Origin: Microbacteriaceae bacterium X2B
GTDB lineage: Bacteria; Actinomycetota; Actinomycetes; Actinomycetales; Microbacteriaceae
Direction: 5' to 3'
NCBI GenBank assembly: GCA_005502445.1
Contig: SCPB01000009.1
Coordinates: forward strand, 1-63,969
DNA length: 63,969 bases
Below are positions 27,413 through 44,600 of the stretch, one piece after another (the first letter of the stretch is position 1; every line of letters begins with the position of its first letter). A program made the position numbers and the translations under genes. The notes below the pieces were generated by a model, which saw nothing but the letters and a program-made list of their open reading frames with translations, was not told the origin of the DNA and searched no databases.

Positions 27413-27634
27413 GTGCAGGCTGAGATCGGATCGCAGAAGGACCTCGGCGCGCTCGTCAGGCGCGTGCGGGTACGCCACGGCTACACGCAGCGCGAACTCG
27501 CTGCGGCTCTCGGGACCACCCAGCGGTACATCTACGAGGTCGAGAACGGCCTGCCCAAGCGCGTCGACGACGACTTCCACGCTCTGCTGCGCAAGCTCGG
27601 CATCACGCTCATCGCGGAGATCGACGATGAATGA
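27413..27634 (+). CDS. HipB-like XRE-family antitoxin
   Basis: Protein of 73 aa made almost entirely of an XRE helix-turn-helix (LGALVRRVRVRHGYTQRELAAALGTTQRYIYEVENG), with a short C-terminal strand (ITLIAEIDDE). In HipBA systems such a protein neutralises the kinase toxin and represses the operon through inverted repeats, which are present upstream. GTG start at 27413 with AGGGGGTGGG upstream. It overlaps the hipA-like ATG by 8 nt. Confidence 0.85.
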   Translation: MQAEIGSQKDLGALVRRVRVRHGYTQRELAAALGTTQRYIYEVENGLPKRVDDDFHALLRKLGITLIAEIDDE

Positions 27635-28967
27635 GCGGCAGCTGCCGGTCACGCTTCACGGCCAGAGCCTGGGCCACCTCACCGATGGGCCAGACGGTCG
27701 GCCGATCCTCCGATGGCACACGCCGGGGCCTTGGCGGCTGAACAGCGCCGTCCTCTCCCGTCACCTCCGTGTGGGCGTCGAGAGCTCCGACGCCACCGAG
27801 TCGTTCTTCGGCGGGTTGCTGCCCGAAGGTGTTCACCTCGACCGGCTGGCCCGCGAAGTCCAGACCAGCACCACTGATCTCGTCGGCATGTTCGCAGCCG
27901 TCGGCGCCGACCTCGCCGGCGCGCTCCACGTCGGCCAGCCGCGCGAGGTCGGCGAGCCGCAGCGTCTCGAGCCCGCCGAGGTGCGCGAGCTGCTGCGGCA
28001 GGCACCCGGCTTCCTCGTCGGTGGAGGAGGTTCGGCACTGCCCGGCTTCCAACGCAAGCTCACCCTCACCCGCCAGGACGGAGGGTGGGTTCGGGGCAAC
28101 GGGCAGATCGCCTCCACCCACATCCTGAAGCCGGTCACCTCGGACCTGCGGGCGGTGGTCGAGTCTGAGGCATACGCACTCGCGCTTACTCGGCACATGG
28201 GTCTTTCGCCGTTCGCGTCCTGGGTGGAGGACTGGGACGACCTCGCCGTGCTGATTGTGCAGCGCTACGATCGCGCCCCCACGCCGTCCGGTCGGATCGA
28301 CCGCATCCATCAGGAAGACCTGGCGCAGGCGCTCGGACTGCCGCCGCACGGCGACCACAAGTTCGAGTGGTACGAACCCGGCGCGAGCCTCACGGCGATC
28401 GCCGCTGAGCTCGATGACAAGGCCACGATCTTCGCGCCGAGCGGCGATCGGGAGCAGCTGCTGCGGTACGTCACCGTCAACGTCGCCGTCGGCAACACCG
28501 ACGCGCACGCCAAGAACTACTCGCTGCTGCACGATGAGCGCGGCGGCACCCGCCTCGCTCCGCTGTACGACATCGCACCGGTCGCGCTCGGCTACAACGC
28601 CAGCGACCGACTCGCCATGAGCATCAACGGCAAGCGCCACCAGGGCGACATCACCACCGAAGACCTTGCAGCCGAAGCCGCCCGGTGGGAGATCGGGGAA
28701 GCCCGTGCAATCGAGATCGTCGGCGACACGCTCGAGCGCCTCATCGAAGGCACTCGCACCCTGCCCGCCCACGACAGCATCGAAGCGCACGTCCCCGGTT
28801 ACGTCCGCCACCAGGCCCAGAACCTCATCGAAGGCAAAGCTGCCCGCATCGACTCCTACACGCCGCTGATGCTGCTGCCCCGCCTCGGCACACCAGCAGG
28901 GCGGGTTGGGGAAGGCGGCGCGTTCGTCAGCCGTGACCACCCCGAATCCGGCGCCGACCTGCGCTAA
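27627..28967 (+). CDS. HipA-like serine/threonine kinase toxin
   Basis: Protein of 446 aa, HipA family; the E. coli prototype phosphorylates glutamyl-tRNA synthetase and causes persistence. The N-terminal HipA_N/couple domain includes FFGGLLPEG (about residue 55). The kinase domain includes GFQRKLTLT, HILKPV and ESEAYALALTRHMG, the catalytic loop VGNTDAHAKNYSLL (about 288-301) and the metal-binding APLYDIAPV (about 310). The full set of active residues appears intact, so the toxin is probably functional. The target in this organism is unknown. Coupled to the antitoxin by an 8-nt overlap. Confidence 0.85.
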   Translation: MNERQLPVTLHGQSLGHLTDGPDGRPILRWHTPGPWRLNSAVLSRHLRVGVESSDATESFFGGLLPEGVHLDRLAREVQTSTTDLVGMFAAVGADLAGALHVGQPREVGEPQRLEPAEVRELLRQAPGFLVGGGGSALPGFQRKLTLTRQDGGWVRGNGQIASTHILKPVTSDLRAVVESEAYALALTRHMGLSPFASWVEDWDDLAVLIVQRYDRAPTPSGRIDRIHQEDLAQALGLPPHGDHKFEWYEPGASLTAIAAELDDKATIFAPSGDREQLLRYVTVNVAVGNTDAHAKNYSLLHDERGGTRLAPLYDIAPVALGYNASDRLAMSINGKRHQGDITTEDLAAEAARWEIGEARAIEIVGDTLERLIEGTRTLPAHDSIEAHVPGYVRHQAQNLIEGKAARIDSYTPLMLLPRLGTPAGRVGEGGAFVSRDHPESGADLR

Positions 28968-29488: not shown

Positions 29489-29560
29489 GGGCGATTGGCG
29501 CAGCGGTAGCGCGCTTCCCTGACACGGAAGAGGTCACTGGTTCGATCCCAGTATCGCCCA
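29489..29560 (+). tRNA. tRNA-Val (anticodon GAC), integration target
   Basis: Acceptor GGGCGAT/ATCGCCC, anticodon stem-loop CTTCC-CTGACAC-GGAAG (GAC). Its T-arm and 3' acceptor strand (from 29541) are duplicated at 37181, so the integrative element entered here and rebuilt an intact tRNA 3' end. Confidence 0.95.
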
Positions 29561-29575
29561 CAAAGAAACCCCCGG
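29541..29575 (+). repeat. attL core
   Basis: TTCGATCCCAGTATCGCCCA plus the next C (29541-29561), one mismatch at 29562, then 13 further identical bases to 29575, matching 37181-37215 at an offset of 7640. The core lies in the T-arm and acceptor strand of tRNA-Val. Confidence 0.92.
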
Positions 29576-29590
29576 TAACGCGGGGGTTTC
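29565..29590 (+). terminator. Terminator after the tRNA cluster (element-derived copy)
   Basis: GAAACCCCCG / CGGGGGTTTC, a 10-bp stem with loop GTAACG. A near-identical terminator follows attR, so the element carries a matching copy in its att region. Confidence 0.85.
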
Positions 29591-29605
29591 GGCGTTTCTA
29601 GGGGC

Positions 29606-29631
29606 CGTCGTGCGATCTACGTGCGATAGCG
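29606..29631 (+). repeat. Left arm-type site (probable integrase binding)
   Basis: CGTCGTGCGAT followed by CTAC and GTGCGATAGCG. The same two-part motif recurs near attR (37025-37049), in the same orientation. Two GTGCGAT copies about one helical turn apart fit the arm sites of lambda-type tyrosine integrases. Confidence 0.65.
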
Positions 29632-30273
29632 AGCTCCGCAGCGGGCTCGATAATGGCCAGCCGCGGCCGCATCGTATGGCGAGCCGACGCCGGCCGGGTC
29701 GGCTCGAGCGCATCCCCGCGGTGGTGGTGGCAGTCTGCGCCCACGGATCGAGCGCTAACGCTCACCGACCACGCGCCGCTATCGCCCCGGAACACGTCGC
29801 GCGGTGCTTAGCGGCGACGATTCGGCGCGCTTAGCGACTTATGACACCCGTGTGTCTCACCAGAAATGTTGGTATGCCCCCAGCCCCTAGAAGAGAGACT
29901 CTCCGCGACCCTCTCGACCGTGCACCCCTACCAACAAATCTGGTGAGCCTCGCCACGTCGCCGTCGCACGCCACGAGCCGCCCGAGCGCCCTCCACTCCG
30001 CGACACGCCCACTACATGCCGTAATTGCCAACGACGCTCCTAGGCCCCTACTCTGCTGATACCGGATCAAGGCGGTGCATCCAGCCTCCGGGGCCACGTT
30101 GCTCAGGTGCACCAGGGCGCGCAACGCGCCGCGAGCCTCTCGAATCCCGAAGCTCCGCCATTCCGGGTAAACGGCAATCGTCTCTCACAGAGAGCCGCCG
30201 CCGTGACCCGCTCGCTCACAACCGCTCACCGCTCCACAGCCCGCCAAGGTGCCTCCGAACTGGAGGGCACCAA
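29632..30273. other. Non-coding left-end region of the element
   Basis: About 640 bp without a convincing gene. It holds an imperfect 16-bp inverted repeat, CACCAGAAATGTTGGT (29858-29873) and ACCAACAAATCTGGTG (29930-29945), enclosing 56 nt that contain a smaller GAGAG/CTCTC palindrome (29893-29903). CTTAGCG is repeated at 29807 and 29830. It is less GC-rich than the operon. It may contain the replication origin, operon promoter or a regulatory RNA; short open frames here lack plausible codon use or ribosome sites. Confidence 0.5.
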
Positions 30274-30477
30274 ATGACCACCCGCGACGCCGCGCCCGCG
30301 GCTTCCCCGCTCGTCACAATCGCTGACGCCGCTGAGCGCCTGAGCGTCAGCCCCAAGACGATCCGCCGCTACGTCGCATCCGGCGCGCTGACCGCCGTGC
30401 GCATCGGCCCGCGTCTCGTCCGCGTCGAGCTCGCCAGCCTCGAGCGCCTCGGCCGCCCGATCGGCAACCGGCGATGA
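30274..30477 (+). CDS. Excisionase/MerR-like helix-turn-helix protein
   Basis: Protein of 67 aa with the HTH_17 excisionase fold: VTIADAAERLSVSPKTIRRYVASGALTAVRIGPRLVRV. Such proteins steer integrase toward excision or act as AlpA-like activators. The ATG at 30274 follows GGAGGGCACC; the frame is open further upstream but lacks similarity. First gene of the element operon, overlapping the next by 4 nt. Confidence 0.75.
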   Translation: MTTRDAAPAASPLVTIADAAERLSVSPKTIRRYVASGALTAVRIGPRLVRVELASLERLGRPIGNRR

Positions 30478-30914
30478 GCGGCAAGAAGGGCAAGAAGAAG
30501 CGCGCAGCCGAGGCGCTCGAGCCCGTCGAGCAGGCGACCGCGACGCCCGGCGCCAGCTTCCACAAGCCGTCACGGGAGAGCCTCGCCTCTCGCGGTCGTC
30601 TTGGCGGATACGTCACGGCGTCGCGTATGAGCCCGGAGGAGCGCTCTGAGCGCGCCCGGCAGGCCTCAGCGGCCCGCTGGGAGGCCGAGAACGAGCGCCG
30701 TCGAGCGCTGGGCCTCCCTCCCACCCGTCGCCGCCTCCCGCTGCTGAGCACCGAAGAGCTCGAGCCGTGGCTGGAGGCGGTCGACCGGCGCTTCCCCGAC
30801 CGCCAGTGGTCGAGCCATGAAGAGCGCCGCCGTCAGGCGCTGCTGCTCGCCCGCATGGCCGCCGCCGCGGCGTCGCACGAGTACCTGACGCGGAAGGCGC
30901 GAGGCGATGTCTGA
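30474..30914 (+). CDS. Unknown element protein with RGRLGGYVTASRMSPEER motif
   Basis: Basic, largely helical protein of 146 aa. A Lys-rich N terminus is followed by a segment RGRLGGYVTASRMSPEER and then ARQASAARWEAE, a motif seen in various phage and plasmid small proteins of undefined role. The C-terminal half (LSTEELEPWLEAVDRRFPDRQW) is more globular. It sits between the excisionase-like gene (4-nt overlap) and the primase (8-nt overlap), which suggests a replication or regulatory role, but none is shown. Confidence 0.6.
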   Translation: MSGKKGKKKRAAEALEPVEQATATPGASFHKPSRESLASRGRLGGYVTASRMSPEERSERARQASAARWEAENERRRALGLPPTRRRLPLLSTEELEPWLEAVDRRFPDRQWSSHEERRRQALLLARMAAAAASHEYLTRKARGDV

Positions 30915-32991
30915 GCGTCCCTACGCCGACGCTGAGAAGCTCTACGCCGCCGCCGGCTGGACGGCGATCCCCGTAACCGGGAAGTTCCCGCCCGTGGCGG
31001 GCGCGACGGGCCGCGAGGGCGTCGCCGACGCCGCGAAGCGCAAGGCGTGGCGCAAGACTCACGCCGGCCACAACATCGCGATACGTCATGAGGGCACGAT
31101 CGCCCTCGACGTCGACGAGTACGGCGACAAGCACGGTGCCGACGAGCTCGCCGAGCTCGAGCGCCTGCACGGCCCACTCCCGCCGACCTTCACGAGCACC
31201 GCGCGCGGGCGGAAGACGGCGAGTCGACAGCACCTCTATCGGATTCCCGAAGGGGTCGAGCTGCGCGCGCAGCCGTCGCCGAGCATCGAGGTCGTGCAGC
31301 GGCACCACCGCTATTCGGTCGGCCCGCCGAGCCGGCACCCGGACACCGGGAAGCTCTATCGCTGGTACACGCCGACGGGCGAGCGCTTCGACGGCGTGCC
31401 GAAGGTCGACGACCTGCCGATGCTCCCCGAGGCGTGGGTCGACGCTCTACGCGCCGAGCCCGCGAAGCGCGACGAGGCGGCCGACTGGGAGACGATCGTG
31501 CAGGACGCGGGGGAGGGGGCTCCTACCGCTGACCTCGCCGCGGCGCTGCAGGCCGCCCACGAAGCCGTGTACGTGGGGCATAGCGTCTTCCGCGACCTCT
31601 CCCAGCGCGTCATGCACCTCGCCTGGGAAGGCCACCGCGGCGCGGGCGTCGTGCTCGACGAGCTCCGCACGATGCACCTCGAGTACCTGCTGTCGAAGGG
31701 GACGACCGGCCGGAAGGCGAACAGCGAGATTGAGCGGCTGCTGAAAGGCGCAGCCGAGAACGCGGCCGGGAACCCGAAGCCGACGACCTTCCCGCTCGAC
31801 GCGCCGACCGTCGCCCCGGTGACCCTCGACGAGTGCGACGACGCCTTCCGGGCGTGGCTCGGGCTCGAATACGACCTCGACGCGCTGCACGCCGTGCTCG
31901 CGGTCGCTGTGGGGGAGAAGCTCACGGGCGACCCCGCATGGCTGCTGCTGCTCTCGGGTAGCGGCAACGCGAAGACGGAGACGGTCGGAGCTTTGGGCGG
32001 TGCCGGCGCACGTCTCGTCTCGTCGATCAGCTCGGCCGGCGCGCTGCTGTCGGCGACGAGCCGCAATGAGCGCACGAAGGATGCGACCGGCGGACTGCTC
32101 CGCGAAGTCGGCGAGCGCGGGCTGCTCGTCGTGAAAGACGTGACGACGATCCTGTCGATGGATCGCACCGCGCGCGCCGAGGTGCTCGCCGCTCTCCGCG
32201 AGGTTTATGACGGACGGTGGGTGCGAAACGTCGGCACAGACGGCGGGCGCTCGCTCGAGTGGTCGGGCCGGCTCGTCGTCATTGGGGCCGTGACAAGCGC
32301 ATGGGATCGCGCGCACGACGTCATCGCCTCGATGGGCGACCGCTTCGTGCTCGTCCGCATGGACTCATCCACCGGCCGCCTCGCTGCAGGGCGTCGAGCA
32401 ATCTCGAACACCGGCAACGAGACGACGATGCGGGCCGAGCTCGCCGCCGCCGCCGCAGGCGTGCTCGCGGGCGCCAACCTCACCGCCGTCGAGCCTGACG
32501 ACGAAGAGGCGGCGACGATTCTCGCGGCCGCGGACGTCGTGACGCGCGCCCGCACGGCCGTCGAGATGGACTACCGCGGGAACGTGGTCGACTCGCACGC
32601 GGCCGAGATGCCTACCCGCTTCGCGAAGCAACTTGCGCAGGTGTTCCGCGGGGCGGTGGCGATCGGCCTCGACCGGCAGGCGGCGCTGTCGCTTGCGATC
32701 CGGTGCGCGCGGGACTCCATGCCGCCGTTGCGGCTCGAGATTCTCGAGGACGTCGCCGCGCATGACTGGACGCCGCTCCGCGAGGTCACCAAGCGCGTCG
32801 ACAAGCCTCGCAGCACCGTCGATCGCCAGCTGCAAGCGCTGCACCTGCTCGGCCTGCTCACCGTCGAGGAAGACATCACGGTGACGGGCATGAGCCTTCG
32901 CGAGACGACGACGTGGCGTTACACCCTCGCCCCCGGCATCGACCTCTCATGTCTCACCACCATCCCCAACAAGAAAGGCACCAAGCCATGA
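30907..32991 (+). CDS. Primase-polymerase fused to a P-loop ATPase (replication protein)
   Basis: Protein of 694 aa. The N-terminal bifunctional primase/polymerase (PrimPol) domain spans about 1-190: YAAAGWTAIPVTGKFP, the catalytic acidic motif IALDVDEYGD (about 64-73), and SVGPPSRHP. A linker follows, then an ATPase domain with Walker A LLLSGSGNAKTETV (about 346-359), LLVVKDVTTIL as a Walker B-like strand, and sensor-like segments. A C-terminal winged helix (VDKPRSTVDRQLQALHLLGLLTV) is near 640-665. It likely primes and unwinds DNA to replicate the excised element. This is the largest gene of the element. Confidence 0.75.
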   Translation: MSERPYADAEKLYAAAGWTAIPVTGKFPPVAGATGREGVADAAKRKAWRKTHAGHNIAIRHEGTIALDVDEYGDKHGADELAELERLHGPLPPTFTSTARGRKTASRQHLYRIPEGVELRAQPSPSIEVVQRHHRYSVGPPSRHPDTGKLYRWYTPTGERFDGVPKVDDLPMLPEAWVDALRAEPAKRDEAADWETIVQDAGEGAPTADLAAALQAAHEAVYVGHSVFRDLSQRVMHLAWEGHRGAGVVLDELRTMHLEYLLSKGTTGRKANSEIERLLKGAAENAAGNPKPTTFPLDAPTVAPVTLDECDDAFRAWLGLEYDLDALHAVLAVAVGEKLTGDPAWLLLLSGSGNAKTETVGALGGAGARLVSSISSAGALLSATSRNERTKDATGGLLREVGERGLLVVKDVTTILSMDRTARAEVLAALREVYDGRWVRNVGTDGGRSLEWSGRLVVIGAVTSAWDRAHDVIASMGDRFVLVRMDSSTGRLAAGRRAISNTGNETTMRAELAAAAAGVLAGANLTAVEPDDEEAATILAAADVVTRARTAVEMDYRGNVVDSHAAEMPTRFAKQLAQVFRGAVAIGLDRQAALSLAIRCARDSMPPLRLEILEDVAAHDWTPLREVTKRVDKPRSTVDRQLQALHLLGLLTVEEDITVTGMSLRETTTWRYTLAPGIDLSCLTTIPNKKGTKP

Positions 32992-33764
32992 CCACCAACA
33001 TCCGCTACCGCGATCCCGAGCACGGCCCCCAGTACATCGTCCTCCCCGACCCGCCCCGCATCCCGATCAAGCCGATTCGCATGGCCCTGGAGGAGAGCAT
33101 CGCCCGCAAAGGCCAGCAGGCCGAGGCCGCGGCCCGACTGCAAGGCGCCTTCAGCGTTCAGAGCGTGGCCGAAGCCGAAGCTGAAGACGAGGCGAACGAA
33201 GCGGCCGCGGGGGGCGGGGTGATCCCATCGAAGGCGCTGGCGAAAAAGGTGGGAGCCGCGGCCGAGGAGGTCGCCACGGCCAAGCTCGAGCACCGAGCAC
33301 GAGCTCACGCCTACGTGGCCGCGCGAGGGACTCTGATCGACGCGATCGACCAGCACACGCCCGCATGGCGCGACGCCGCTCTCACCGCCGCCGACCGCGG
33401 GATCGCGCGCCTTGCCACCGCCCGCGAGGCGGCGCTGCAGGCCGCCGCCGAGTTGACTGAGCCGCTGGCCGTGCTCGAGATGCTGCAGATGTTCCCGCAG
33501 ACGCGCGCGCCGATGATCGACCAGGGCGGCGTCACTGCCGCTCACGTGAGCCGGGCGCTGCTCGAGCTCGGGTCGGCGATCGGGTCGGCCGTCGAGGCGC
33601 TCGCCCGGTTCCGCGGCGCGGAAGCCGCGACGGCCGCGGCCGAAGACGAGAAGGCGGGCGAGGCGGCCGCTAGGGAGACCGCGGGGGCGACCGCATTGGC
33701 GATCCACGCCGAGCGGGCAGCTCGTCGCGCGGCCAAGGCGGAGGCGGAGGCGAGCGATGGTTAA
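32988..33764 (+). CDS. Unknown Ala-rich helical element protein
   Basis: Protein of 258 aa. The first 35 residues are non-helical and Pro-rich (YIVLPDPPRIPIKPIRM), and the rest is an Ala/Glu/Arg-rich, coiled-coil-like sequence with a more globular middle (ELTEPLAVLEMLQMFPQTRAPM). No family recognised. The ATG overlaps the primase stop by 4 nt (ATGA) and the stop overlaps the next gene by 8 nt. Position after a primase and before a terminase-like gene is compatible with a structural or scaffolding role, but this is only position. Confidence 0.6.
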   Translation: MTTNIRYRDPEHGPQYIVLPDPPRIPIKPIRMALEESIARKGQQAEAAARLQGAFSVQSVAEAEAEDEANEAAAGGGVIPSKALAKKVGAAAEEVATAKLEHRARAHAYVAARGTLIDAIDQHTPAWRDAALTAADRGIARLATAREAALQAAAELTEPLAVLEMLQMFPQTRAPMIDQGGVTAAHVSRALLELGSAIGSAVEALARFRGAEAATAAAEDEKAGEAAARETAGATALAIHAERAARRAAKAEAEASDG

Positions 33765-34122
33765 GCCAGGCAAAGGGCTCCAGAAGAGCGAAGCGCGCGC
33801 CGTCGAGGCCGCTATTCGGGCCGTCGTCATGCGGCGCGAAGGCTACAGCCACGGCGAAATCGCAGAGCGGCTGGGGGTCACGCAACTCGAAGCCGAAGAG
33901 CTAACCCGCGTTGCGTACTCGCGGCTCAGCGCGGAAACGGCCGAGGAGCTCAGAACTTCCGTGGAAGACCGCATCGATGCGATCGTTCGCAAGGCAAACA
34001 CGGATCTAGCACTCGCCGAGGATCAAGGGACACGGACGGCCATATACCGCGTGTTACTGGCCGCGGAAGCCCAGCGGGCCCGCCTCCTCGGACTGAATCT
34101 GCGCGGCGGCAGCGATGACTAG
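33757..34122 (+). CDS. HTH protein resembling a small terminase subunit
   Basis: Protein of 121 aa. An N-terminal helix-turn-helix (MRREGYSHGEIAERLGVTQLEAEEL, about 28-52) is followed by helical segments and the ending EAQRARLLGLNLRGGSDD. This HTH plus RARLLGLD-like tail is characteristic of a group of actinophage proteins often called small terminase or terminase-like. In satellites a TerS redirects a helper phage's packaging. No large terminase is present. It could instead be a sigma-like or regulatory HTH protein. Confidence 0.5.
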   Translation: MVKPGKGLQKSEARAVEAAIRAVVMRREGYSHGEIAERLGVTQLEAEELTRVAYSRLSAETAEELRTSVEDRIDAIVRKANTDLALAEDQGTRTAIYRVLLAAEAQRARLLGLNLRGGSDD

Positions 34123-34387
34123 GGCCGCTGAGGTAGTCGCGTACTCGATCGACAGCGCTCGCGGCGAGGTAATCGTCGGCGTGACCGTGACCTGCCCGAA
34201 CGGTTGCCGCGACCGGCGGCGACCGGCGACCCATCACCACGGCTGGACGCGCACGAGCGGCGAGGACGGCGGCTACCGCGCCGCCCATTGCGGCACCGGC
34301 GGCGCCAGCGGGTACCGCCTCACCTGGCCGGGCGGGCCGCCCGCCGACGTGGTCACCGCGCTCACGAACCGAACGGAGACAAGCTGA
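34115..34387 (+). CDS. Unknown small Cys/His protein of the element
   Basis: Protein of 90 aa. It has a strand-rich N terminus (VVAYSIDSARGEVIVGVTVTCPNGC) and a Cys/His cluster (CPNGC, HHHGW, HCGTGGASGYRLTW) that could bind zinc. No family recognised. It overlaps the preceding gene by 8 nt and shares one base with the next ATG (TGATG). Confidence 0.55.
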   Translation: MTRAAEVVAYSIDSARGEVIVGVTVTCPNGCRDRRRPATHHHGWTRTSGEDGGYRAAHCGTGGASGYRLTWPGGPPADVVTALTNRTETS

Positions 34388-34986
34388 TGCCCCTCGCACG
34401 CACGACCAAGAGAAACGAGCTCACCCCTGACCAGGCTGCAGCCGCGGCCGAGCTCGAGATCATGCAAGCCGAAGTGGAGCGAGCCTTTGCCGCCGACCGT
34501 GCTCAGATTCGGGCTCTCGCCGCGCTAGACGACCTCACGCCCGAGCAGGCCCGGCGGTTTGACCTCCTGGCCGAGCAGCACCGCGAACGGAAGGCAGAGC
34601 AGAAGCGCGACGCGATCGAAGACCCGCTGCGCGAAGCCGCCGCCGCGGCCCACTGGGACAAGCGCGCCGAGCGCGGCGTCCCCGGCTTCGACGACCCGGT
34701 GCGGCGGGAACTGTTCGTCATGTTGGGCCGGCGCGACTTCCCGCTCGATCGGGCCGAGCGCAAGGCGCAGAAGAAGGCGCGCCGCTCGGCCGCCGACGCG
34801 GCGAAGAAGGCCGCGCAGGCGGCCGAGCGCGCCGAGCTCGACGCCCGTTTCTCGCGCATGAGAGAGGGCGACGAGCCCGACGTCGCCAAGCCCGCAGAAC
34901 GGCGCACAGCGACTGCTGCCGAGGTCGAGAAGCCTCAGCCGGCGCGTCGCCCCGTGCCGCGCGTGACGTACATCCCCATTCAGTAG
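34387..34986 (+). CDS. Unknown highly charged coiled-coil element protein
   Basis: Protein of 199 aa, dominated by charged helices: residues about 10-90 and 110-165 (KAQKKARRSAADAAKKAAQAAERAE) look like coiled coil. A central segment WDKRAERGVPGFDDPVRREL looks more specific. The tail ends PVPRVTYIPIQ. No family recognised. The start was fixed by the TGATG junction with the previous gene. Confidence 0.6.
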   Translation: MPLARTTKRNELTPDQAAAAAELEIMQAEVERAFAADRAQIRALAALDDLTPEQARRFDLLAEQHRERKAEQKRDAIEDPLREAAAAAHWDKRAERGVPGFDDPVRRELFVMLGRRDFPLDRAERKAQKKARRSAADAAKKAAQAAERAELDARFSRMREGDEPDVAKPAERRTATAAEVEKPQPARRPVPRVTYIPIQ

Positions 34987-35018
34987 CACCGACCACCGAC
35001 ACCGAACGGAGCACACCC

Positions 35019-35231
35019 GTGGACACCACGAACACCAGCCCTACCGCCCTACGTCGCCGCATTGCCGAGCTCGAGCGCAAGATCGCCAGGCGACAGCGCG
35101 CCGCGGAAACGCCTTCAGAGGCACAGGCCCGCGCAATGGGTCACCCGAGGCCGCGCACCGCCCGCGACACGCCGAGCGGCGACGCCAGCGCGCGAGCCGC
35201 GGCGAAGCTGACGGGGGTCGGCGATGAGTGA
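35019..35231 (+). CDS. Small unknown element protein
   Basis: Protein of 70 aa. One predicted helix (ALRRRIAELERKIARRQR) is followed by a polar tail. GTG start with ACGGAG upstream; it is the only gene of the operon separated from its neighbour by more than a few bases (32 nt). It overlaps the following ATG by 8 nt. No function inferred. Confidence 0.5.
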   Translation: MDTTNTSPTALRRRIAELERKIARRQRAAETPSEAQARAMGHPRPRTARDTPSGDASARAAAKLTGVGDE

Positions 35232-35445
35232 GCCGACGACGTGGGTTCAGACGGTCAAGCCGTTCGACGCGGACTCGTTCGACTGGCAACTCAACCGGGG
35301 GAACGCCCGCAACTGGATGCGCGGCGAACCGCTCGCGTCGCCCTACGGCGACGTCTCGGCGGTCGAGGTCGTCTCAGTCGTCGAGCGGGTCGACCGCCGC
35401 GGCGAGGTCGCGGCGACGATCGTGTATGGGATGCTCCCCTCATGA
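35224..35445 (+). CDS. Small unknown element protein
   Basis: Protein of 73 aa, probably compact alpha/beta: TWVQTVKPFDADSFDWQLN, NARNWMRGEPLASPYG, then strands VSAVEVVSVVERV and ATIVYGMLPS. No family recognised. Overlaps both neighbours (8 and 4 nt), supporting translation. Confidence 0.55.
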   Translation: MSEPTTWVQTVKPFDADSFDWQLNRGNARNWMRGEPLASPYGDVSAVEVVSVVERVDRRGEVAATIVYGMLPS

Positions 35446-35828
35446 GCTTCAAGAAATGGATCACCGGGGGCTATCAGGCCGAAGCCCTCGCCCAACGCCT
35501 CCAATGGCAGCTGGGCGGCCTCGCTCTCGAGGGCGATCAGATCGTCATCGCGGGGGAACGTCACCTCGTGAAAGGCGTGACCGCCTCAATCGTCGATGAA
35601 GGCGTGGCACGCTCGAGCGTGTCGGCCGGTCGCGTCGTGGCTGGGGGAATCATCCTCGGGCCGGCCGGGATGGTCATCGGCGCGCTCGCGAAAAAGCACA
35701 CCCGCGGCGACGGCGCGATCATGCTCGACGGGCCGAGCTTCCAAATGTTCATGGGATTCAAGGGTGCGCTACTGCCTCAGGCGCGGGAGCTCGTGGCCGC
35801 AATCAACACGGCGGCCCGTCAGCCCTAG
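35442..35828 (+). CDS. Small protein with glycine-zipper-like hydrophobic segment
   Basis: Protein of 128 aa. The first half is soluble (GLALEGDQIVIAGERHLVKGVTA); a Gly-rich hydrophobic segment GRVVAGGIILGPAGMVIGAL (about 67-86) follows, then a basic stretch and a soluble tail. The segment could be a single membrane span or glycine zipper. Last gene of the operon. Its TAG stop and the integrase TAG stop share the CTAG at 35825-35828, so the two transcripts converge. Confidence 0.6.
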   Translation: MSFKKWITGGYQAEALAQRLQWQLGGLALEGDQIVIAGERHLVKGVTASIVDEGVARSSVSAGRVVAGGIILGPAGMVIGALAKKHTRGDGAIMLDGPSFQMFMGFKGALLPQARELVAAINTAARQP

Positions 35829-37012
35829 CGCGCCGGGCGCTTGGCCATGCGGGCCGCGAGCTCGGCGTCGCGGTCGGTCGCGTGCTGATAGCGCATCGCC
35901 ACAGCCGCCGACGAGTGCCCGAGGCGGGCCATCGTTTCCGCGATCGTCGCGCCCTGCTGGGCGTACGCGGTGCCCGCTCGATGCCGGAGGGCGTGGAAGG
36001 GCATGTCGGGCCGCCCCGCCGCCTCGCGAGCGCTCGACCACCACGGCGTGTGGAACGTGCTTTGCGACAGGTGCCGCGTGCCCGTCTCGTCGCCCGGCGC
36101 CGGGAAGAGCAAGGGATCCCCGAACCTGCCGACGTGCTCGGCGAGGTGCGCCGCGATCGCCTCGGCCGCGTCGCCGTAGACGTACACGGCGCGAACGCCC
36201 GCGCTCGTCTTCGTGGGGCCGCTGACGAACTTCCCGCCGACCTTCACGACCGCGTGGGACACGCTGACGAGCACGCGGGCCACCGCGCCCGACTCGTCGC
36301 GCTCGACCTCGACGTCGGAGCGTCGAAGGTCGGTCGCCTCGCCGTAGCGCAGCCCGCCCTCGGCGGCGAGGTAGACGAGCGCGCGGAAGCGGGGCGCGAT
36401 CGCCTCGAGGATCGCGTCGAGTTGCGCGTCAGTCGGCGGAACGACCTTGCGACCCGTGCGGGCCGACTGGGCACCGCGGACGCGGCAGGGGTTCGCGGCG
36501 CCCTTGCCCAGCGCCTCGCGGTCGACCGCGTGCCCGAGGATCGTCGAGAGCAGGGAGTATGCGCGCGAGGCTTGCGTCAGCTTCCCGGTGCGGCTCTGCT
36601 CGTCGTACCAGGCATCGACCGTCTGGGCGGTGATCTTCGACAGCGGCATCGCGGCGAGAGTTGCGAGCGGCCCGCCGAGCAGGCGGCGATACTCGTCGAC
36701 CGTGCGAGGGCGGAGCGGTTCGCCGCGGCGGTTGCGATTCGTCGTTAGCCACGTGTCGGCGTACTCGGCGAGCGACTGAGAGCGCACGGCCTTCGCGGCG
36801 GTGGCGGCCTCGGCGAGCTCGGGCGACCACTTGTGCGTCTCAGCGGCCACGAGTCGGTCGCGCAGCTGCTTGTCCGCGTCGATCTTCGCGTCGAAGGTGC
36901 CTATCGAGTAGCGCTTGCCTTCGTAGACGTGGCTGGCCTGCCACCGCCCGCTCGGCAGCTTGCGGACGTAGCCGGCCGACGCTCGGGACGCCTTGCGTCG
37001 CTTCTCAGCCAT
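35825..37012 (-). CDS. int: Tyrosine recombinase (phage-type integrase)
   Basis: Integrase of 395 aa. The N-terminal arm-binding domain (about 1-65: GYVRKLPSGRWQASHVYEGKRYSIGTF) is AP2-like, then a SAM-like core-binding domain (about 75-175) and the catalytic domain with Arg222 (GLRYGE), Lys268, His340-x-x-Arg343, His366 (LGHSS) and the nucleophile Tyr375 (AMRYQHA). All catalytic residues are present. The ATG has GAGAGGG upstream. The promoter region coincides with the right arm-type repeats, suggesting integrase autoregulation. attR begins 168 nt upstream of the start. Confidence 0.93.
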   Translation of the reverse strand: MAEKRRKASRASAGYVRKLPSGRWQASHVYEGKRYSIGTFDAKIDADKQLRDRLVAAETHKWSPELAEAATAAKAVRSQSLAEYADTWLTTNRNRRGEPLRPRTVDEYRRLLGGPLATLAAMPLSKITAQTVDAWYDEQSRTGKLTQASRAYSLLSTILGHAVDREALGKGAANPCRVRGAQSARTGRKVVPPTDAQLDAILEAIAPRFRALVYLAAEGGLRYGEATDLRRSDVEVERDESGAVARVLVSVSHAVVKVGGKFVSGPTKTSAGVRAVYVYGDAAEAIAAHLAEHVGRFGDPLLFPAPGDETGTRHLSQSTFHTPWWSSAREAAGRPDMPFHALRHRAGTAYAQQGATIAETMARLGHSSAAVAMRYQHATDRDAELAARMAKRPAR

Positions 37013-37024
37013 GACCGGCCCTCT

Positions 37025-37049
37025 CGTCGTGCGATAACGTGCGATAGCG
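37025..37049 (+). repeat. Right arm-type site (probable integrase binding)
   Basis: CGTCGTGCGAT, then AAC, then GTGCGATAGCG: the counterpart of the left arm repeat (29606-29631), with a 3-nt instead of 4-nt spacer. It lies just upstream of the int ATG and overlaps its likely promoter. Confidence 0.65.
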
Positions 37050-37180
37050 GACGGCTATTCGTGTCTCAGCGTGTCCACTCGTGACTCTATCACCGAGGGG
37101 GCCGCATGCCAGTAAATACGCGGCATCGGGGCGGTTTGGCCCGTCGTTCCGGGGGAGTGACAAGAGGGGCGCTGTACTAA

Positions 37181-37215
37181 TTCGATCCCAGTATCGCCCA
37201 CTAAGAAACCCCCGG
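37181..37215 (+). repeat. attR core
   Basis: TTCGATCCCAGTATCGCCCA plus C, a T/A mismatch, and 13 more identical bases, copying 29541-29575. Upstream bases do not continue the tRNA, so this is the truncated copy left by integration. Confidence 0.92.
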
Positions 37216-42131: not shown

Positions 42132-42587
42132 ACCTTACGAAATATCGAGTTGCTGCCCGCCGCCTGGGCCGCGGGTTCCGGGGCGGGTCACATGTTCGTA
42201 GTGCCCCATACCTGAGGGATCCCAGCTGGACACGCATAATGTCTAGCGTCACGCTGATGAGCGCGGCGCGTGTATCCGTCGTCTGCCACCGGGCGTCACA
42301 AGCCGCAAGAGGCAAGCGAGCGTACGCATCGGTTGCCGATACCGGCCGCCCGGCCACGACTCGGCCGGGTTTGGAGCCCGTGAGGTTGTCTGTCCGGCGG
42401 TCGCCGACGGGTCTGGGTCTGGGTCAGCGTAGTAGGAGTCCTCGGTCTCGATCAGGATGCGGTGGCCCATAGGTCTTCATGTGGTCGGGCATTTGCCGCG
42501 CAGGGAAAGCCGCCGCTGAGGCCGGGTTCTCTCGTTTTCGCCGCCGGTAGGCTGGGGCGGTCCCGCCCACGCCCCAGAAGGAGCCCC
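42132..42587. other. Gap between the island and thrS
   Basis: About 455 bp. A short minus-strand frame starting at 42470 ([18 protein letters not shown]) looks protein-like for about 25 codons but then degrades, probably debris. TAGGCT (42548-42553) is the likely -10 for thrS, with AAGGAG before its GTG. The change in composition near 42.5 kb probably marks the island edge. Confidence 0.45.
42548..42553 (+). promoter_or_regulatory. -10 hexamer of the thrS operon
   Basis: TAGGCT, 34 nt before the GTG start; the leader is short, so no T-box element is present. Confidence 0.5.
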
Positions 42588-44600
42588 GTGTCCGAGCACG
42601 CCGCCGAGTCGTCCACCGCCGTCCCCGAGGCGATCGTGGCAGAGACGACGACCGACGGCTTCGGGCTCTTCACCGACCGCTCCGTCGTCGCGATGCGCGT
42701 CGACGGCGAGCTGCGCGACCTCGCCCACCGCGTCGAGCCCGGCACCCGCGTCGAGCCCGTGACGATCGGCAGCCCCGATGGCCTCGCGATCCTCCGGCAC
42801 TCGGCCGCGCACGTCCTCGCCCAGGCCGTGCAGTCGATCAACCCCGAGGCGAAGCTCGGAATCGGCCCGCCCGTGACCGACGGCTTCTACTACGACTTCG
42901 ACGTCGCATCCCCGTTCACGACCGACGACTTCGCGGCCCTCAGCAAGGCGATGGAGCGCATCGTCCGTCAGGGGCAGCGGTTCATCCGCCGCGTCGTCAC
43001 CGAGGACGAGGCCCGTGCCGAGCTCGCGAGCGAGCCGTACAAGCTCGAGCTCATCGGGCTCAAGGGCGCGGCGGCCGACGGAGCCGACGGCGAGAGCGTC
43101 GAGGTCGGGGGCGCCGAGCTCACGATCTACGACAACGTCGACCCCAAGACCGGCGAGGTGCACTGGAAGGACCTCTGCCGCGGCCCGCACCTTCCTAACA
43201 CGCGCATGATCGGCAACGGCTGGGCGCTCATGCGCGTCGCGGCCGCGTACTGGCGCGGGTCGGAGAAGAACCCGCAGCTGCAGCGCATCTACGGCACCGC
43301 CTGGCCGAGCAAGGACGAGCTGCGGGAGTACCGCTCGCGCCTGGAGGAGGCCGCGAAGCGCGACCATCGCAAGCTCGGCGTCGAGCTCGACCTCTTCAGC
43401 TTCCCCGACGAGATCGGCTCGGGGCTCTCGGTCTTCCACCCCAAGGGCGGCATCATCCGCGCCGAGATCGAGAACTACATGCGCCAGCGCCTGCTCGAGA
43501 ACGGCTACGAGCTCGTCTACTCGCCCCACATCACCAAGGGGCAGCTGTTCGAGACGAGCGGCCACCTGCAGTGGTACGAGGAGGGCATGTTCCCGGCGAT
43601 GCACCTCGACGAGGAGCGCGACGCCGAGGGCAACATCACCAAGCAGGGGCAGAACTACTACCTCAAGCCGATGAACTGCCCGTTCCACAACCTGATCTTC
43701 CGCGCGCGCGGCCGAAGCTACCGCGAGCTGCCCCTGCGCCTCGCCGAGTTCGGCACCGTCTACCGCTACGAGAAGAGCGGCACGCTCTCGGGCCTCACCC
43801 GCGTGCGCGGCCTCACGCAGGACGACGCCCACATCTACGTCACGCCCGACCAGGTGAAGGCCGAGGTCGCGAGCCAGCTCGAGTTCGTGCTCGAGACGCT
43901 GCGCGGCTACGGCCTCGACGACTTCTACCTCGAGCTGTCGACGAAGAACCCCGACAAGTACGTCGGCAGCGACGAGGTCTGGGAGCAGGCGACCGAGACC
44001 CTCCGCGAGGTCGCGACCGAGTCGGGCCTCGAGCTCGTCGCCGACCCGGGCGGCGCCGCGTTCTACGGCCCGAAGATCTCGGTGCAGGCGCGCGACGCGA
44101 TCGGCCGTACCTGGCAGCTCTCGACCGTGCAGCTCGACTTCAACCAGCCCGAGCGCTTCGAACTCGAGTACGCCGCCTCCGACGGCTCGCGCCAGCGCCC
44201 GATCATGATCCACCGCGCGCTCCTCGGCTCGATCGAGCGCTTCTTCGCCATCCTGCTCGAGCACTACGCGGGAGCGTTCCCGGCCTGGCTCTCGCCCGTG
44301 CAGGTCGTCGGCATCCCCGTCGCCGAGGAGTACGCCCCCTACCTCGACAAGGTGATCGCCCGACTGCGCACCGCGGGGGTGCGCGCCGAGGTCGACCACT
44401 CCGACGACCGGATGCAGAAGAAGATCCGCACCCACACGACCCACAAGGTTCCGTACCTGCTCATCGCGGGCGAGGAGGATCGCGCGAACGGCGCCGTGAG
44501 CTTCCGCTTCCGCGACGGCACGCAGGTCAACGGTGTGCCGGTCGACGACGCGATCGCGCGCATCACCGGCGCCATCGCGAGCCGGTCTGCAGAGCTGTAG
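42588..44600 (+). CDS. thrS: Threonine-tRNA ligase
   Basis: Class II aminoacyl-tRNA synthetase of 670 aa. The N-terminal TGS-like domain (about 25-75: [16 protein letters not shown]) is followed by the editing domain with [14 protein letters not shown]. The catalytic core has [14 protein letters not shown], the zinc-site MNCPFHN, motif 2 [26 protein letters not shown] and motif 3 [26 protein letters not shown]. The C-terminal anticodon-binding domain ends in [13 protein letters not shown]. The GTG 42588 with AAGGAG gives the usual length; a longer in-frame upstream region is Arg-rich and was rejected. First gene of the thrS-HIT pair. Confidence 0.96.

Follow-up and report, generated by a model that had tools for sequence, protein, structure and literature searches.

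A likely TerS-encoding, PICI-like phage satellite at the tRNA-Val(GAC) gene of a Microbacteriaceae bacterium

We analyzed a 63,969-nt stretch of contig SCPB01000009.1 from Microbacteriaceae bacterium X2B (the window), which carries a 7.66-kb island bracketed by exact 21-nt copies of the 3′ end of a tRNA-Val(GAC) gene. The island is likely a phage satellite that resembles the phage-inducible chromosomal islands (PICIs) and encodes a terminase small subunit (TerS). This reading draws on the pair of attachment (att) repeats, a tyrosine integrase, an AlpA-type protein and a PrimPol replicase; on an empty site in a congener; on a full relative in Microbacterium sp. MAH-37 (L019); on a gene block conserved among relatives; and on the identification of the fifth gene, g5, as TerS. 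The initial annotation had proposed a satellite or a closely related autonomous mini-element, and this gains support here, since neither of the results named as contrary to it, homologues of the genes in conjugative plasmids (searched with g3 and g5) or a block that is only the remnant of a full prophage, was found.

The target tRNA-Val(GAC) gene (29489–29561, plus strand; ARAGORN and Rfam) is intact, and its 3′ end forms attL. The 21-nt attL core (29541–29561) recurs identically as the attR core (37181–37201), both on the plus strand, in agreement with the exact repeats described initially. The match can be widened to 54 nt, including the downstream terminator, at 91% identity. Elsewhere in the window, a search allowing up to four mismatches located the core at one place, within the neighboring tRNA-Val(CAC), with four mismatches. 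Just inside both island ends lie direct repeat pairs of CGTGCGAT on the plus strand (29609–29627, starts at 29609 and 29620; 37028–37047, starts at 37028 and 37038), which account for 4 of the 13 GTGCGAT copies in the 64-kb window (both strands) and are candidate integrase arm sites, a function assigned from sequence.

An empty counterpart of this site is found in the congener G002 (L106), where only 99 nt separate tRNA-Val(GAC) from the threonyl-tRNA synthetase gene (thrS) downstream of it. In the window, thrS lies at 42588, with 96% protein identity to its L106 counterpart, and DNA similarity to G002 resumes at 42508. Given these two anchor points, the window differs from L106 by an insertion of ~12.9 kb in two pieces, the island and a second segment from 37202 to ~42507. 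The same tRNA-Val site holds islands in L018, L019, L020, L032, L149 and the genome G023. Because the one in G023 (L107:654–10001, minus strand) is a different element, with an integrase, an AlpA-like gene and an AAA_25 replicase, the site is an integration hotspot.

Other features were noted around such sites. The segment 37202–42507 contains DsbA-like, zinc-transporter-fragment and VKOR genes, and opens with 61 nt that are 85% like the sequence following tRNA-Val in G023. Two tandem att cores, 72–74 nt apart, follow tRNA-Val(GAC) in L093 and L094 (congeners G003 and G021) and are perhaps scars of past insertions; G004 has three partial-to-full core copies on one contig. In the host's own genome, a locus on contig C27 (L109:3781–6317) encodes an integrase 42% identical to that of the island beside an AlpA-like gene, perhaps a decayed second island.

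The island contains ten plus-strand genes (30274–35828) and a minus-strand integrase gene that converges on them, overlapping g10 by 4 nt. Successive junctions of the ten genes are overlaps of 4, 8, 4, 8, 8 and 1 nt, a gap of 32 nt, and overlaps of 8 and 4 nt, so that the tight packing reported initially, with 1–8-nt overlaps and one 32-nt gap, agrees with the coordinates. Pfam, PHROGs and NCBIfam scans covered ten of the eleven island proteins, and g8 was searched with PHROGs and PADLOC only. The integrase (int, 35825–37012) is of the tyrosine type (Phage_integrase, PF00589, E = 4e-15; phrog_1, E = 3e-55), and g1 (30274–30477) encodes an AlpA/excisionase-like helix-turn-helix protein (HTH_17, PF12728, E = 2e-9; TIGR01764, E = 1e-8); both had been recognized as such from the start. 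The third gene, g3 (30907–32991), encodes a replicase for which a PrimPol-ATPase had been proposed. Its PrimPol part stands (PF09250, E = 8e-24). The ATPase part does not stand as a family assignment: the second half is helicase/ATPase-like by resemblance only, no Pfam or NCBIfam ATPase model matched up to E = 1, and only a C-terminal winged-helix stretch was recognized. A sequence comparison of g3 with solved structures gave no match.

The genes g2 (30474–30914), without assigned function, and g4 (32988–33764), encoding a long helical, coiled-coil-like protein, flank the replicase gene and recur throughout the family described below. The g4 model (predicted local distance difference test score, pLDDT, 78.6; alignment of three sequences) comprises long helices and a short N-terminal hairpin. 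Downstream of g5 (33757–34122), no function is assigned to g6 (34115–34387) or g9 (35224–35445), operon reading frames without a Pfam family; to g7 (34387–34986), for which relatives have a similar-sized gene at the same position with similarity below significance; or to g10 (35442–35828), which has no phage match. The small protein g8 (35019–35231) has a positional counterpart of weak similarity in relatives. OscarSo proteins matched g9 (E = 8e-3) and g10 (E = 8e-4) too weakly for these matches to be used.

The absence of structural phage genes noted initially was borne out by the library scans, which recognized no capsid, portal, tail or large-terminase family among the ten proteins; the only PHROG entries of the 'head and packaging' class were small terminases (g1 to phrog_57, int to phrog_2414 at E = 0.3). 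A PADLOC search for defense cargo across nine of the eleven island proteins and one flanking gene returned matches only to the winged-helix stretch of g3, together with PDC-M03A for the flanking HipA-like gene. Cargo for conjugation was likewise sought. An integrative mobilizable or conjugative element of the kind of actinomycete integrative and conjugative elements (AICEs), carried by a conjugative helper, could present a similar core, as Int, Xis and PrimPol are central to some AICEs too, and the whole of g3 matches 3 of 72,556 plasmids, two of them predicted to be mobilizable. These plasmid matches involve the PrimPol part only, and neither the second half of g3 nor g5 has a match in the same plasmid set. 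AICEs and conjugative elements are defined by an FtsK/TraB-like translocase or a relaxase; Pfam and NCBIfam detected neither, nor any transfer family over cut-off, among the ten island proteins scanned. Set against the TerS-like gene of the island as well, an AICE-type element is very unlikely.

The assignment of g5 as TerS is very likely. In L153, a locus from a 3.2-Mb contig of a genome whose genus is taken as Microbacterium, a 157-residue homologue of g5 (E = 4e-9) is encoded 25 nt upstream of a large terminase (TerL) gene (phrog_2, E = 8e-43), with a portal gene ~3 kb beyond; this arrangement supports the earlier suggestion of a small-terminase-like helix-turn-helix protein. A g5 profile also matches gp1 of Microbacterium phage DelaGarza (E = 3e-13; hhalign probability 96%, 37% identical across 91 aligned columns); gp1 opens an arm in which gp8 is annotated as terminase. 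The g5 model (pLDDT 77.6; three sequences) has a terminase small subunit as its best fold match in BFVD (E = 6e-4), and further proteins so named occupy ranks 5, 12 and 36 among the 50 matches listed. A two-sequence g5 alignment found no relative in viral contigs.

Several results weigh against TerS, or against the satellite reading as a whole. Comparison of the g5 model with PDB folds gave nothing below E = 0.2 and mostly TetR-type proteins, with Sf6 TerS at rank 4 (E = 0.44). Alignment of g5 with the annotated TerS of phage Wyvern by hhalign found nothing, and tblastn of g5 against phages gave no match below E = 0.7. The PHROG of g5, phrog_645, is labeled 'Rnase E', a label made doubtful by the L153 homologue adjoining a large terminase gene; this suggests that the label is wrong and that PHROG 645 may be a small terminase family. 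The small-terminase match of g1 (phrog_57, E = 7e-5) is weaker than its match to the excisionase family (E = 3e-8). At the level of the island, the integrase gene sits at the far end and is convergent, unlike in the PICI map (PMC6092414). Finally, a search of the host genome (99.98% complete) for large terminases belonging to phrog_9 or phrog_2 found none at E = 1e-3, so a helper would be an infecting phage rather than a resident of those kinds.

Relatives of the island were sought through g5. The search matched 5 of 398 genomes in the family (taken to be Microbacteriaceae) and 2 of 396 in an order-level sample (both already found). Within single genera, it matched 2 of 24 genomes in that of G143 and 15 of 345 (6 strong, 9 weak) in that of G130, taken to be Microbacterium. 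All 12 strong places and eight of the nine weak contexts (all except G844) were read, with genes in the relatives called by a simple purpose-made caller. All 12 elements show the order g2, replicase, g4, g5, the block being interrupted by one additional small gene in L017, L142 and L147, and g5 of the other 11 elements is 37 to 74% identical to that of the window. The replicase itself varies: seven elements have one of the window's kind, two (L147, L148) another PrimPol/primase type, and three (L121–L123) an AAA_25 replicase without similarity. So does the integrase, which is of the tyrosine type in three elements and a serine recombinase in nine. Profiles built from three elements recovered g5 (E = 6e-41 to 1e-21), g4 (1e-16 to 2e-7) and g2 (1e-25 to 2e-4) of three held-out elements, and did not recover their replicase. 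A full relative, L019, occupies the same tRNA-Val site with a 31-nt att repeat and spans 7.9 kb; its gene order is that of the window's element (AlpA, g2, replicase, g4, g5, convergent integrase).

By eye, serine-integrase members appear to lie at a Tad/Flp pilin locus (L017, L122) or at a comM–dprA locus (L121, L123). At seven further Microbacterium loci, an integrase accompanies a g5 homologue of weaker similarity, and there is no TerL; six of them are bounded by repeats. L150:5731–11824, L152:6314–11892 and L156:7904–12682 are tRNA-Gly islands of 4.7–6.0 kb with an integrase and a g5 homologue and no large terminase, possibly a second, smaller satellite family; L152 also has a replication-initiation-like gene.

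Phage structural genes were then sought across the 12 elements. A hidden Markov model (HMM) panel (three large terminases, two portals, two capsids, tape measure and major tail; E = 1e-4) had no match in the 12 loci and did match terminase and portal in L153. This panel was partly built from elements that it labels; the held-out evidence is the three-element profile test together with L142 and L144–L148. PHROGs were run on 112 proteins of the 12 elements, covering genes other than the integrases, the replicases and g1 of the window. Thirteen families matched, the commonest being phrog_645 with ten members; families named minor head, tail and tail fiber had one member each, L121:10794 also matched structural families, and no major capsid family was found among the 112 proteins. 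These results bear on the idea that the island is the leftover of a full prophage, for which its phage-type integrase, PrimPol and TerS could be cited. Its att pair is retained, however, and its reading frames are open and overlapping. The g2–replicase–g4–g5 block, lacking recognized head or large-terminase genes, recurs in the same compact form with parts exchanged in 12 elements, at places of which none is a full prophage; because this organization recurs, the island does not look like a remnant, an origin we consider highly improbable.

The second half of g3 connects the island to a wider set of elements. Among 398 relatives, 13 had a replicase match, the window's own included, and close relatives were limited to G143 (57% identity across almost the entire protein) and G366 (62%, confined to the second half). 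Single-protein scans found no relative of the replicase in genomes or viral contigs, nor of the integrase in viral contigs. A scan with an alignment of the second half identified 34 loci in named genomes and 27 in viral contigs. A search of 50,697 phage records with this half gave no match; full-length g3 matched 246 phage records, and the 30 listed align to its PrimPol part only. Exact repeats were sought in the 34 loci from named genomes (L017–L050), and 11 in which repeats flank both integrase and replicase were kept, loci without repeats or with shorter or unplaced ones being dropped (for example L024, L025, L040 and L043). The 11 delimited islands span 7.1–10.6 kb; four lie at tRNA-Val(GAC) (L018, L019, L020, L032) and six at tmRNA or other tRNA genes (tRNA scan without L030). 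Seven carry a major capsid gene (L018, L020, L026, L030, L032, L037, L041), L022 has a large terminase, L021 a scaffold-like gene, and in L019 and L031 no such gene was seen. In four viral contigs (L054, L056, L057, L066), the replicase half occurs together with families of large terminase, portal and protease. On account of these delimited islands and viral contigs, the second half of g3 marks small phage-derived islands, mostly in Actinobacteria.

The frequency of capsid genes in that wider set raises the alternative that the island is an autonomous mini-phage, or a satellite forming its own capsid, with a head protein that has diverged beyond recognition; g4, being long and without assigned function, could be cited for this. 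The fold of HK97 capsids is unlike the long helices and short N-terminal hairpin modeled for g4. Furthermore, the HMM panel detected no capsid, portal or TerL, and PHROGs no major capsid family, in the 12 close elements, which leaves this alternative distinctly unlikely relative to a capsid-less satellite.

Some members of the family carry genes resembling those of phage tail tips. The HMM panel located a minor-tail or tail-fiber-like gene in five of the 12 elements (L019:13565–13966, L121:10794–11480, L146:11549–12100, L147:8097–8495, L148:7711–8115) and none in the element of the window. Their N-terminal parts are alike, and their lengths and C-terminal parts differ. Over residues 17–160, the L121 copy shares 49.7% identity with gp28, a minor tail protein of Microbacterium phage Wyvern; the copy matches a total of 28 phage records and also Peptidase_S74. 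We infer that satellites of this sort have exchanged genes with phages like Wyvern and OscarSo. The family as a whole might comprise a fixed hijack block (g2, g4, TerS) around which unrelated replicases and integrases are exchanged, with some members bearing a relative of the helper's tail fiber so that the hijacked particle displays the satellite's tail tip; we regard this broader picture as possible rather than probable.

An interrupted palindrome (29856–29947) precedes the operon; its 19-nt arms (29856–29874 and 29929–29947) are separated by a 54-nt spacer. L019 has a counterpart of similar sequence, likewise with a 54-nt spacer, and a comparable repeat arose in 0 of 60 resampled sequences of each of the two regions. 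Among 63 loci with the replicase half, upstream half-sites CACCAG and CTGGTG 76 nt apart were present in the window and L019 only, the comparison covering the upstream part present in each locus (many viral contigs end early). The palindrome was not found in the remaining family members read, L017 having one pair, spaced 72 nt, that falls outside its element, and is therefore not a family trait. It is a candidate origin or operator, two roles that the sequence does not separate. A promoter scan returned no site, and terminator-like sites were fewer than in shuffled sequences.

Taken together, these features suggest a possible life cycle for a TerS-directed satellite. Infection by a tailed phage of the DelaGarza/L153 kind would act as the trigger, and the AlpA-like protein would aid excision of the island. 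The PrimPol protein would replicate it, possibly starting at an origin close to the palindrome, and g5 would recruit the helper's large terminase to satellite DNA, so that helper heads are filled with it and the satellite leaves in helper particles. Since g4 and g2, like TerS, are present in every family member, they would probably serve the same hijack, perhaps via altered capsid assembly. Helper dependence, induction and packaging are each predicted here from gene content and kinship.

Just to the left of the tRNA cluster, the region 27413–28967 of the window holds a HipA-like gene (PF07804) preceded, by eye, by a small helix-turn-helix-like gene.

Many Microbacterium phages have been sequenced, so that a helper, a packaging signal and interference would be directly testable. 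Satellite evolution would likewise become amenable to testing, given that replicases are exchanged around a constant block and that the replicase half connects this family with islands carrying capsid genes in Nocardia, Gordonia and Mycolicibacterium (L020, L026, L023). The g5 family offers a handle for finding more satellites, having led to the seven further loci with integrase and TerS and without TerL.

PICIs are described as att-bounded elements with int, an AlpA-type regulator, a primase-replicase and sometimes terS, and without structural or lytic genes; their induction and packaging depend on a helper phage, with which they interfere, and prophages never occupy their att sites (Fillol-Salom 2018, PMC6092414). 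The island is similar in being att-bounded and in having int, an AlpA-type gene, a primase-replicase and a probable TerS, with no recognized structural or lytic genes. It differs in size, being half the typical ~15 kb; in architecture, as int in PICIs stands at one end and the xis and replication genes point away from it (PMC6092414), whereas int of the island is at the far end and convergent; and in its PrimPol replicase, its lack of a recognized second regulator and its Microbacteriaceae host. Candidate Mycobacterium PICIs, defined by int plus a major capsid gene, and the PICI-like phiRv1/phiRv2 (mSystems 2023, PMC10654092) are also actinobacterial, use tRNA sites or serine integrases and in some cases have replication genes. 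Several islands with the second half of g3 fit that int-plus-capsid definition; the island of the window, in which no major capsid gene was recognized, does not. The Streptomyces phage satellites MulchRoom and MiniFlayer carry encapsidation genes and lack key replication genes (deCarvalho 2023, PMC10690885), a gene balance that is the reverse of the island's in what are also actinophage satellites. The PICMI elements of Vibrio (PMC10803314), compared by description only, share with it a reduced gene content without recognized capsid remodeling genes, and differ in their Vibrionaceae hosts.

Among further sources, PMC11389934 reviews satellite families, PMC10023795 assumes many actinobacterial elements below 15 kb to be possible satellites, and PMC9862828, on Curtobacterium, does not use the word 'satellite'. 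We found no account of this family in the open-access literature searched, a search that most subscription papers lie outside. The island would thus work like a TerS-type PICI and is nevertheless not filed as a PICI proper, because its size and architecture differ; it is better described as a variant of the satellite kind. Actinobacterial phage satellites in the literature searched are mostly capsid-encoding candidates, whereas this family would be TerS-directed and capsid-less.

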